DNA of 51,640 nt, taken from contig JAGWTI010000013.1 in the NCBI GenBank assembly GCA_028876065.1, positions 1 to 51,640 of the forward strand, in the 5' to 3' direction. This DNA comes from Nitrospirota bacterium (GTDB lineage Bacteria; Nitrospirota; Nitrospiria; Nitrospirales; Nitrospiraceae). A program made the position numbers and the translations under genes. Position 1 is the stretch's first letter, and each line of letters begins with the position of its first letter. This document shows, piece by piece, positions 43,267 through 48,880 of the stretch. Below the pieces are notes generated by a model. That model was not told the origin of the DNA. It made no database searches and saw nothing but the letters and a program-made list of their open reading frames with translations.

Positions 43267-43766
43267 TGCTCGTTCCTCCCTTGTGGTACTCATGATTGGT
43301 GGTGGTACAGGAGCTTCGGAGACCGGGGAATCGATCGCGCATCGAATGGATTGGTGCGGCGCGAGAGATCAAACCGTCAGCGTGGCTCAACGTATCGGCC
43401 GCCATCCTGCCCCAGAAGCGAGGCGTGGGTCAACCGAATAGTGGCGAACGAGGTGTGATGTGGCGGGATGGCATGGCCGTTCGCTTCCGCACCTCCGGAG
43501 CAAAGACGCCTCGGCTGACGAAGGTCGGGCAGCGTCGGCTTCGCCACGATGCGATGGTGCTACTGTGCCGCCGGCACCATGCTATTAGCCGCTCGCCTCA
43601 TCGGACTAGAAGAACGGCGAGCGGCGCCCTCTCTGCCTTCTTGTATCCCGATTCCCGCCGTGGCGAAGGCCTCCCTGCCCATCCCTTCCACCCGCGTCAG
43701 AAGAGAGAGGGGGGGTATCGGGACAGGCCGTTTGTACAAGCCCGTTCCGGAGTCCAGTTGAGGGCA
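43267..43766. other. Intergenic stretch without a supported gene; degenerate repeat pieces
   Basis: No gene is supported here. It holds CCGCACCTCCGGAGC at 43487-43501, repeated exactly at 44496-44510, so the two copies bracket the toxin-antitoxin pair. From about 43676 to 43745 it holds a decayed relative of the REP-like element (CATCCCTTCCACCC, AGAGAGAGG, CGGGACAGG). A plus-strand open frame crosses this region and the antisense of the toxin, and is rejected. Confidence 0.5.
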
Positions 43767-44192
43767 TTATCGCCTAGGGCGTGCAAGCATGAGCGCAACA
43801 AAGCCTTCCTGCTCAAAATGTCGGTCCGATGTCAGGACGAGCGAAAGGCGATGTTTGCGTATGACGGTCATGGAGAGGCAGTCTGTCAGGCTGTAGCCTT
43901 TGTCGGGTCTGGCTTTGTATCAGACAAACGCGCTGTTGAAGAAGGTTCGGCTTTGCGGAATAACTTTGACCATCGGATTGTTCAGGATGGTCTCGACTGT
44001 TCTGATAGCGAAGGTGCGGATGTTGACGCCACTGTCGGCCAGAGCGTTCAAAAATTCCGTGAGAACGGCGTCGGTGGTAATCAGCCGGACTTGGCCGAGC
44101 GACGATGAAGCTTCGACCGCGGCTGCGTGGTGTTGATCGAAAGGGTTCGTGAGGGCGATCCAATATGCCGTGTCGGCAAAGACCTGCTTCAA
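43767..44192 (-). pseudogene. PIN-domain toxin interrupted by an in-frame stop
   Basis: The minus strand reads as a complete PIN-domain ribonuclease of about 141 codons, the normal length for a VapC-type toxin. Codon 91 is TGA (43920-43922). Before the stop the protein has VFADTAYWIALTNPFDQHH (Asp7) and TTDAVLTEFLNAL. In the same frame after it are YKARPDKGYSLTDCLSM and LTSDRHFEQEGF, which carry the remaining acidic metal-binding residues. A single nonsense change explains the break, and the rest of the frame is intact. The 90-residue fragment lacks two catalytic acids and should be inactive unless the stop is read through. Its start overlaps the antitoxin stop. Confidence 0.82.
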
Positions 44193-44395: not shown

Positions 44396-44683
44396 AGTGG
44401 CTTCAGTGTAGTAGGCAGTCGAGAAGGAGTCAAGAAGCTTGCAGACGATGCCTCGCTGGCGAAGGGGGAGGCGGGTGTGCCGGGGCGCCTCGCCTCCGCA
44501 CCTCCGGAGCGACCCGTCTGACTCAGCCGGGCGGAACCCTTCGGAAATTCCCTCGCGGACTCGGTCAGTTTCCGCTTTCCTTCCCGGCAGAGTCTCGTCA
44601 GGCTCTTTCGCTCCTCCGGCGAAGTCGGCTCGCGCCCCAGTACACCCGCTGGAAAGAAATTTCGCGCCTAAAAGAGAGAGGGG

Positions 44684-44714
44684 CGGGACAGGTCGCTCTT
44701 TTGACCTGTCCCCG
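44684..44714. repeat. REP-like inverted repeat, copy 1
   Basis: The arms CGGGACAGGTC and GACCTGTCCCCG are complementary apart from one extra C, with an 8-base T-rich loop, and are preceded by AAAAGAGAGAGG. The same arms occur at 46693-46723. Such GGGGACAGG palindromes resemble REP elements mobilised by RAYT-type transposases. No such transposase is in the window. Confidence 0.65.
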
Positions 44715-44752
44715 ATTTTCTGCCTTGGTCAGTTTCTGTGATTCATTAGCCG

Positions 44753-44901
44753 GATAAACTGCAGGATTCGCAGCCTATCTCGTGGCACTAGATGGAGTGA
44801 TTGATAAGTGTATGACTTTGCAGTAGGCTTGCCCAGAACAGATTGCTGAGACCGCCTTGCTATGCAGCACAGATAGCCTGCAGCGCACTTAATAGTTAGA
44901 C
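44753..44901 (+). other. Candidate degenerate attC site before cassette 1
   Basis: GTTAGAC at 44895-44901 fits the attC right core (GTTRRRY) and lies 27 bases before the first cassette gene. The sequence upstream forms an imperfect palindrome (GCAGCCTATCT near 44775 and its partner AGATAGCCTGC near 44870). The left core GATAAAC is a poor match and the span of about 149 bases is slightly long. It is much weaker than the attC at 45441. Confidence 0.35.
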
Positions 44902-44927
44902 CGTCTCTACGCCAGACCGAGACGAGG

Positions 44928-45446
44928 ATGCCGAAACACTACGTGTATCGTATGGATCATGATGTCGGCTTTGCTCCTCGAATCCAAGGACGCCTCTGCA
45001 CGCTATGCGGATGCAAAACCACCACCGTAGAGCGATGGGCTGAGCCGGGGAGCTGGGTAGTCGGAATCGGAGGCTTGGGCACCGGCCGGCCAGATGCCCT
45101 TATCTATGCGATGCGGGTAGACTCAACTCCTAGTTATCACGCGCTTTCGAGGGGCCAGCATCACGTGGCCGCTTATCTCCGAGGTCACGGAATCGCCCAG
45201 AATGCCCACGTCCTTTTGGCAAACTACTTCTTCTATTTCGGTGAAAATGCCCTATTGCTTCCGCGTCGCCTCAAGCACATCGTGATCGACCGCCAGGGAG
45301 CTTGGCGTTTGACCGACTCAGATGTTGAGGCCCTTCAACGTTTTCTTGGCCCGTATGGACCAGGCAAACACGGCGAGCCGAACAACGGTCGAAAATGCCG
45401 CAGCCAAAGACAGCCACGTCATGCATGCTTCCGGACGACGGTCTAA
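44928..45446 (+). CDS. Cassette 1 protein: Nmad2-like (nucleotide modification associated domain) candidate
   Basis: A 172-residue product. The N-terminal part YVYRMDHDVGFAPRIQ, then TLCGCKTTTVERWAEPGSWVVGIGG and DALIYAMRVD, matches the layout of Nmad2 proteins: HDxGFAP, then a CK motif, then GDW-like and YAM. That family was predicted from context to take part in DNA base hypermodification and is not biochemically defined here. The stop codon TAA lies inside the left core of the attC site, as is usual in integron cassettes. The last 25 residues are basic and non-conserved. Composition differs from the chromosomal genes around it, which suggests transfer. Confidence 0.62.
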   Translation: MPKHYVYRMDHDVGFAPRIQGRLCTLCGCKTTTVERWAEPGSWVVGIGGLGTGRPDALIYAMRVDSTPSYHALSRGQHHVAAYLRGHGIAQNAHVLLANYFFYFGENALLLPRRLKHIVIDRQGAWRLTDSDVEALQRFLGPYGPGKHGEPNNGRKCRSQRQPRHACFRTTV

Positions 45447-45524
45447 CAAACGAATGGAGCCGATGCGCCCATCGTCTCGTGCGATCATGACACTGAGGCG
45501 CGCGGCTCATTTGTCGCGTTAGGC
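45441..45524 (+). other. Integron attC recombination site
   Basis: The left core GTCTAAC (45441-45447, RYYYAAC) and the right core GTTAGGC (45518-45524, GTTRRRY) are perfect complements and 84 bases apart, within the usual attC range. Inside them ACAAACGAATGGAGCCG and CGGCTCATTTGT pair imperfectly with an unpaired G, as the L sites do, and GCGCC/GGCGC pair further in. The upstream gene stops inside the left core and the next gene starts 19 bases after the right core. Confidence 0.8.
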
Positions 45525-45542
45525 GTTAGAGGCAACTCTGCG

Positions 45543-46052
45543 ATGAAGGACACGCTTTTTCACGCGATTGATCCTCGCGACGGAATGTTCTGCCACAACA
45601 TCAAGCTCAGTGCGGGGCGTCTCACAGCGGTTTCGTTTGTTCGATCGGCTGTGCCGGAGTGGAGTGGTATGCGCTCGCCCTATGAGGCTTTCACCCGCGA
45701 AACCGAGAAAGAGGACTTCTTTGAGGCTGTTCGCGCTCGGGGTTTCCCGTCTGCTCCTCCGAGGAAAGGGGCCTTGTTTCTCTTTGCATCGATTGAAGAC
45801 GCGGCGACGGCAAACGCTAGCTGGTGGCAGGACCAGCGGGTCATCCTTCCAGCCCAGATCGTGCAGGCTTCTCGAGTCGGTGCCTTCGATGCTAGCCAAC
45901 TTGATGCGCCGCGCGAACGCTGGGAAGCCGCAGCTTGTTCGTACTGGGCTGGTGAAACCACCGGCCGCCCGCGAATCGAAGTGCTCGTCGATGGTATCGT
46001 TCAGCTCCAGGGATGGGAGCCATTCGCGAAACTGCTCCGCCCCGGAGCATGA
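45543..46052 (+). CDS. Cassette 2 protein of unknown function
   Basis: A 169-residue soluble protein. It starts FHAIDPRDGMFCHNIKLSAGRL, has SPYEAFTRETEKEDFFEAVR and ALFLFASIEDAATANASWW, and ends near VDGIVQLQGWEPFAKLL. The layout resembles small DUF2441-like or tRNA-ribosyl-like families found in cassettes, but I do not recognise it with certainty. It has no signal peptide or membrane segment. It follows the attC right core closely, which supports it being a real cassette gene rather than a chance frame. Confidence 0.6.
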   Translation: MKDTLFHAIDPRDGMFCHNIKLSAGRLTAVSFVRSAVPEWSGMRSPYEAFTRETEKEDFFEAVRARGFPSAPPRKGALFLFASIEDAATANASWWQDQRVILPAQIVQASRVGAFDASQLDAPRERWEAAACSYWAGETTGRPRIEVLVDGIVQLQGWEPFAKLLRPGA

Positions 46053-46095
46053 GAGATGCTAGCACCCAACCATCAGGTCGAACCGGCCGCCCTTC

Positions 46096-46386
46096 TCACC
46101 CCTTCGCATGCTTAGCCAGAATGTCGTTGATCAGGGTTTGGTAGCCGATATCCCGCTGTTTCGCCTCTTTCTTCACCTCTTCGAGTACGCGCGGATCAAT
46201 GCGAATAGCGATCAAGCGGCGGGCGGACTTTCCAATCGGAGGACGCCCAACGCGGCGCATCGCGCGCAACTGCTCGTCCGACAGCTCGGGGATATCCGAG
46301 AAATCAATCGGCTGAGTCTTGGCGATACGCGGCCTTTTCCTTCCGGTTCGCTTGCCGGGCACTGATGATGCGAGTAGCTTCGCCAT
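46096..46386 (-). CDS. brnA: BrnA-family antitoxin
   Basis: The 96-residue product has an N-terminal part with DFSDIPELSDEQLRAM and a C-terminal ribbon-helix-helix segment, RRLIAIRIDPRVLEEVKKEAKQRDIGYQTLINDIL. The latter gives DNA binding and autorepression in the BrnTA family. GAGGAGG lies before the ATG at 46386. It overlaps the end of the BrnT gene by about 83 bases in another frame, more than usual. It neutralises the BrnT ribonuclease. Confidence 0.85.
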   Translation of the reverse strand: MAKLLASSVPGKRTGRKRPRIAKTQPIDFSDIPELSDEQLRAMRRVGRPPIGKSARRLIAIRIDPRVLEEVKKEAKQRDIGYQTLINDILAKHAKG

Positions 46387-46594
46387 CACTTTTCCTCCTC
46401 ACGGTATAGGCAACCACCAAAATTCGCCCTGCGGACGATTTGCCGAGGCGGAGAAAACGCTGTTCGGCAATCGAGTGCAGGATGTCTTCACCGTCCAGCG
46501 CATCGTCGTCGGCAAAAACCGACGTGGCTTCTTCAAACGACACTCCATGTTTGGTGAGATTGACAGTCGCCTTTCCAGGGTCCCATTCAAACAC
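46304..46594 (-). CDS. brnT: BrnT-family ribonuclease toxin
   Basis: A 96-residue protein with the BrnT signature FEWDPGKATVNLTKHGVSFEEATSVFADDDALD, then RFLRLGKSSAGRILVVAYTVR and TRIISARQANRKEKAAY. The Arg and Lys residues at the end are those expected in the RelE-like active site. The start is GTG with almost no leader after a good -10 box. The frame is intact, so the pair is probably functional, in contrast to the PIN toxin nearby. Confidence 0.87.
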   Translation of the reverse strand: MFEWDPGKATVNLTKHGVSFEEATSVFADDDALDGEDILHSIAEQRFLRLGKSSAGRILVVAYTVRRKSDGEATRIISARQANRKEKAAYRQDSAD

Positions 46595-46629: not shown

Positions 46630-47055
46630 GAGGATGCCGGTCTGGGTTTTCGGCACGAGAAAGAGCGCTAGGACTATTCTTTGCTTAAAGAGCGGGGACA
46701 GGTCCATTGGCGACCTGTCCCCGTACACTCTCTTTTATTTTTGGCCGCGAGGGTGGAAGGGATGGCCGGTGAGGGCTGCGTGACGGCGGGAGTGGGGTGG
46801 TGGATAGCGGAGAATCGCCGCGCGCCGTTCTGCTAGTCCGGTGAGGCAGCCCGGCCGACAGTAAGGTATGAATAGCCGAGCGACCTCAACGCATCGTCAG
46901 GCAGCCAGAACCCGGCCACCCTTCGTCACCCTTCTTCGTCTTTCAGCCGTTCGTCAGCCGGGTTTCGACGTCTGCTCCGAGAGGTGCGAAAGCGAACGGC
47001 CGTCCTGCCCCGCTAAGACCTTTCCGACCAGTCCGCCCTTCGTCACCTGCTCTTC
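46630..47055. other. Intergenic stretch between brnTA and ilvD
   Basis: It contains the second REP-like inverted repeat, then GGCCGCGAGGGTGGAAGGGATGG, the reverse complement of a motif found at about 43676. The remaining 250 bases have no convincing gene. A 63-codon plus-strand frame here has biased, low-information composition and no ribosome site. CTTCGTCACC occurs twice, at about 46921 and 47040. Confidence 0.45.
46693..46723. repeat. REP-like inverted repeat, copy 2
   Basis: A perfect 12-base palindrome CGGGGACAGGTC / GACCTGTCCCCG with a 7-base loop. It is followed by TACACTCTCTTTT, the reversed form of the AAAAGAGAG that precedes copy 1. The two copies flank the attC and cassette region and brnTA. 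Confidence 0.7.
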
Positions 47056-48729: not shown

Positions 48730-48755
48730 GTTATCTCCTCTTACCTATGGTTCGG

Positions 48756-48880
48756 CAGGATGTTGAAAAAGGCCTCCAGCTGCGTTCTCGCATCGCTTAA
48801 AGCCTCGACGTACAGCAAAAAAGTACGCCTCGGCTTTTCACTCGCTGCGGCCTTGCTGGGCGGCCTTTTTGACCATCCTG
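48756..48880. repeat. 125-bp palindromic intergenic repeat element (MITE/REP-like)
   Basis: The ends CAGGATGTTGAAAAAGGCC and GGCCTTTTTGACCATCCTG are inverted repeats with few mismatches. Inside, AAAGCC-x4-CGTAC and GTACG-x4-GGCTTT form a second nested stem around an A-rich loop. The element lies between divergently spaced leftward genes and upstream of ilvD. From memory, elements of this type recur in Nitrospira genomes. The only copy in the window is this one. Confidence 0.7.

Follow-up and report, generated by a model that had tools for sequence, protein, structure and literature searches.

A probable complete integron cassette carrying an Nmad2-family gene, without a nearby integrase, at a variable chromosomal spot of a Nitrospirota bacterium

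Gene content of the variable island

The window, i.e. the whole stretch of DNA analysed here (51,640 nt; all of contig C134 of the host draft genome G000), contains a variable island edged by two copies of a dispersed intergenic repeat, both with approximate limits: a left copy (44,455–44,740, + strand), with matches in the host genome and in genomes of the same family, and a right copy (46,667–47,040, − strand), matching the syntenic copy in same-genus genome G002 at 92%. The left copy is partly inverted relative to the right, and the right-hand stretch (46,660–47,045) has 21 matches in the host genome. With a further copy at 43,463–43,740, these form a repeat family that brackets variable cargo. 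The island includes a gene for an Nmad2 domain protein (44,928–45,446, + strand; 172 aa), an attC site (45,441–45,524, + strand), ORF2 (45,543–46,052, + strand; 169 aa), and two neighbouring genes on the − strand that are not cassettes, encoding a BrnA antitoxin (46,096–46,389; PF14384, E = 3.3e-10) and a BrnT toxin (46,304–46,594; PF04365, E = 4.5e-25). Outside the island, a PIN-like toxin ORF (43,920–44,192) encodes 90 aa, compared with 141 aa in G003 (L057, 3,331–3,756), and is probably truncated or frameshifted in the window. A separate 125-bp sequence in the gap that separates ilvD from the next gene (48,755–48,880) is present in many copies, with 84–92% identity, across genomes of the family.

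The Nmad2-like identity first proposed for the 172-aa protein is borne out by a match to PF18753 (Nmad2; E = 4e-22; 79.1 bits vs a gathering score of 26.1), the best stretch covering profile positions 1–72 of 200. ORF2 is distantly DUF2441-like (36% identity to a G406 protein that matches PF10386) and also matches phrog_5663 (E = 2.5e-7); no viral contigs with ORF2 were found. Searches of phage proteins with the Nmad2 gene and of plasmid DNA gave no match, PADLOC matched neither gene to known defence-system models, and the literature on Nmad2 function yielded nothing useful. Confidence in the predicted structures of the two proteins is low (mean pLDDT 56 and 32).

In three same-genus genomes the syntenic interval, flanked by an aminotransferase gene and ilvD, lacks the island, so that the comparison with relatives suggested in the first-pass annotation did recover an interval without it. 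This interval is nearly empty in G002 (only ~300 bp before the repeat), contains in G003 an unrelated ORF (306 aa) with partly inverted repeats on either side, and carries a histidine kinase in G001. Among ~396 genomes of the phylum neither the Nmad2 gene nor ORF2 has a close relative: the former has otherwise only partial matches (34–42%) and the latter a match in one other genome (36%). The two genes were never found together; vertical descent of the pair, which the first-pass annotation had named as the pattern that would count against a cassette, was thus not seen in any relative. A protein 53% identical to the Nmad2 protein is encoded, without an attC, in an Acidobacteria MAG (L034), and no attC was found near relatives of either gene. 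The absence of the island from same-genus genomes, the lack of close relatives and the atypical GC3 of both genes (0.58 for the Nmad2 gene and 0.62 for ORF2 vs 0.86–0.90 in flanking core genes) support horizontal arrival of the cassette region, and the cassette is a lineage-specific and probably recent acquisition.

Structure of the attC site and limits of the cassette

The attC site is 84 bases long, with the layout GTCTAAC-6-ATGGAGCC-...-GGCTCAT-7-GTTAGGC: R″ (GTCTAAC) at 45,441–45,447, L″ (ATGGAGCC) at 45,454–45,461, L′ (GGCTCAT) at 45,504–45,510 and R′ (GTTAGGC) at 45,518–45,524. Both cores fit the RYYYAAC/GTTRRRY consensus. They had been described from first inspection as perfectly complementary; both are present, but only 6/7 positions pair, and it is with GTTAGAC, at 44,895–44,901, that R″ pairs perfectly (7/7). 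The remaining structural observations of the first-pass annotation stood. L″ and L′ form an imperfect palindrome (7/7 pairs) with one unpaired base at 45,456, a G on the + strand and thus a C on the bottom strand, while the TAA stop codon of the Nmad2 gene (45,444–45,446) falls within R″ and the next ATG (45,543) lies 19 bases beyond the site.

A geometric attC finder, written for this analysis and tried on integron regions from plasmids, recovered the attCs of aadA, aacA4, aacC1 and cmlA, and the window site shares the layout of these class 1 sites, with canonical spacers of 6 and 7 nt and an unpaired base third in L″. The bottom-strand extrahelical bases follow the pattern T-N6-C, shared with the cmlA attC and second commonest after T-N6-G among 35 tabulated attCs (the window site included, and with register uncertain for some of the sites counted). 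In excision assays IntI1 is efficient with attCs of both patterns (PMC3053210). Unlike class 1 integron cassettes, the locus has no IntI1, attI or promoter platform, and has an uncharacterised Nmad2 protein as its cargo.

Across 785 kb from other loci, matches to the same layout occurred only in regions chosen for integron-integrase matches. Dinucleotide shuffling of the window, to a total of 687 Mb, produced two sites that reached 6/7 or better for R and 7/7 for L at exactly this spacing (~1.5e-4 per window). A covariance model (R1) based on ten other attCs, of which six come from the bacterial family of the window, with the window site left out, aligned well to 45,441–45,524 and scored it at 42.1 bits (E = 9.9e-8), the runner-up in the window reaching 12.2 bits; the site thus withstood the covariance check proposed for it. 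An Rfam scan gave no match. Predicted folding puts the bottom strand only moderately ahead of shuffled sequence (z = −2.2) and does not clearly favour it in energy over the top strand. Palindromes are common and this z-score is modest, as would suit a chance inverted repeat or a transcription terminator resembling an attC, yet such an origin is highly improbable against two equivalents in all the shuffled sequence, 42 bits on a model that had not included the site, and a stop codon in R″ combined with a unique matching opening core. On these grounds 45,441–45,524 is a genuine attC and a putative recombination substrate.

An inserted cassette is expected to open with a GTTRRRY core complementary to R″ of its own attC. 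On its + strand the window has a single copy of GTTAGAC (44,895–44,901), which is R″ in exact reverse complement and lies 33 bases 5′ of the ATG of the Nmad2 gene. Because this opening core is unique in the window and pairs with R″ at 7/7, the cassette is taken to be the 623-bp segment 44,896–45,518 (+ strand), beginning at TTAGAC; the last six bases of the linear R′ are then downstream DNA outside it. As a control, an exact partner within 700 bp upstream was found for 4/56 RYYYAAC motifs in the window. Across 11 array cassettes of the same family the opening core matched R″ at 5 to 7 of 7 positions, and an unusual pair in an array of the host genome (contig C13), opened by GTTATAT and closed by ATATAAC, also matches at 7/7. 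The segment has the make-up of a gene cassette: a single ORF follows an opening GTTRRRY and has its stop near R″ of the attC that belongs to it. The G+C content of the segment is 57% (vs 63% for the window).

Integrase-less attC loci are well known. The first-pass annotation had envisaged a small cluster of such sites here, and this part of its reading was not sustained, the attC at 45,441–45,524 being single at the locus. Its weaker site ending at 44,901 (44,753–44,901) reached model scores of 1.7–4.1 bits at best and folds like shuffled sequence (z = −0.2 and 0.4), while ACCCAAC at 46,064–46,070, proposed as the left core of a truncated third site, scored up to 2.6 bits and likewise showed no folding advantage over shuffled sequence. 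A second RYYYAAC motif, GCCCAAC at 46,245, falls within brnA with no site to partner it, and the covariance model found no attC after ORF2. A CALIN comprises at least two clustered attCs without an integrase, two being the default in IntegronFinder 2.0, although that study accepts that a CALIN with a single attC may be a true positive (PMC9024848). The locus shares with such elements an attC-bearing cassette without an integrase, and differs in its one attC, its genome and its cargo from the CALINs of that study, two of which were reported in Candidatus Nitrospira inopinata (PMC9024848).

Integrase genes and further attC sites in the host genome

The earlier remark that no integrase was in view holds for contig C134, where no integrase-model match, and hence no adjacent intI as in a complete integron, was found; nor did any match exceed the cut-off in the whole draft genome (3.41 Mb, 158 contigs), whose gene content suggests that the host is probably a Nitrospira. 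The integrase-specific insertion is missing from both ORFs (306 and 315 aa) behind the best integrase-model matches. The integrase-specific stretch found nothing better than E = 0.498 in the host genome, compared with 1e-31 to 1e-36 in relatives G015 and G187. Integrases over the cut-off are present in 66/296 phylum genomes. One integron integrase ORF (L009, 422–1,786) has an N-terminal extension of ~120 aa, and in several family members the integrase matches lie within open frames of 430–520 aa.

Seven further attC matches, five of them >29 bits, were identified elsewhere in the host genome by a search that was lossy, the window's own site being missing from its list. They include a three-attC array with cassette ORFs, the first methyltransferase-like, on contig C13 (L142, 4–1,221), and single attC sites on C22 (L143, 6,956–7,019) and C130 (L144, 1,927–1,997). 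Because the attC loci of C13, C22 and C103 sit at contig ends, absence of intI from the organism is likely rather than proven. Those contig ends, and a partial integrase on the edge of a contig in same-genus G001 (6e-13 with the integrase-specific stretch), are what an active integron with intI in an assembly gap, serving the cassette in trans, might leave behind. Such an arrangement, compatible with either insertion history discussed below, appears unlikely given an estimated genome completeness of 100% and the failure of the integrase-specific stretch to find in the host what it readily found in G015 and G187.

Origin of the cassette

The locus very probably holds one complete cassette, an Nmad2-family gene with its own genuine attC, in a variable chromosomal spot with no integrase nearby. 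An integron integrase, acting from a former local integron or in trans, would have bound the folded bottom strand of the attC and joined the cassette at the G^TT core. If the integrase later vanished, or was never local, the cassette would now be fixed unless integrase were supplied again. Both this recombination history and the present competence of the attC are what we infer from the arrangement described above.

ORF2 is either a second cassette that has lost its attC or a resident gene. Its start follows a consensus core (GTTAGGC), the position expected of a second cassette, yet no attC of its own is left; the locus is more likely than not the remnant of a longer array that lost its other attCs and the integrase; we infer this former array from one consensus core, a second attC not having been found at the locus. 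Insertion of a single cassette at a non-classical, attG-like site, with a promoter region on one side, a resident ORF2 on the other and no array at any time, is possible but rather less probable. It would account for the presence of one attC only and for a flank left of 44,895 that is not attC-like, and the genus has further single attCs that are preceded, at the distance of one cassette, by a matching opening core. Integrase activity of this kind has been described (Loot et al. 2024, as cited in PMC12901181 and PMC12444791), and attG-inserted cassettes, as presented there, show how a lone cassette could come to lie in a chromosome at a distance from any attI; for the window cassette, whose pre-insertion site was not recovered, this would be a candidate route. 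Set against it, the post-crossover TTAGGC fits TTRRRY and pairs with R″ at 6/7, which arbitrary DNA would do about 1 in 20 times (estimate), and the composition of ORF2 is also atypical.

The remnant of a longer array is thus the reading we prefer. A broader proposal, that the lineage scatters cassettes singly or in short groups at non-attI sites, with the integrase absent or in trans, as a regular means of gene acquisition and not through array decay, is more speculative still and on balance improbable. The locus alone alters no accepted view of integrons, and integrase-less attC loci have already been reported in Nitrospira. It adds a clean attC cassette of canonical structure, in a phylum for which IntegronFinder 2.0 had listed just two CALINs (PMC9024848). 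If cassettes do routinely scatter without a local integrase, the genomes of these hosts would provide a natural setting in which to study non-attI insertion.
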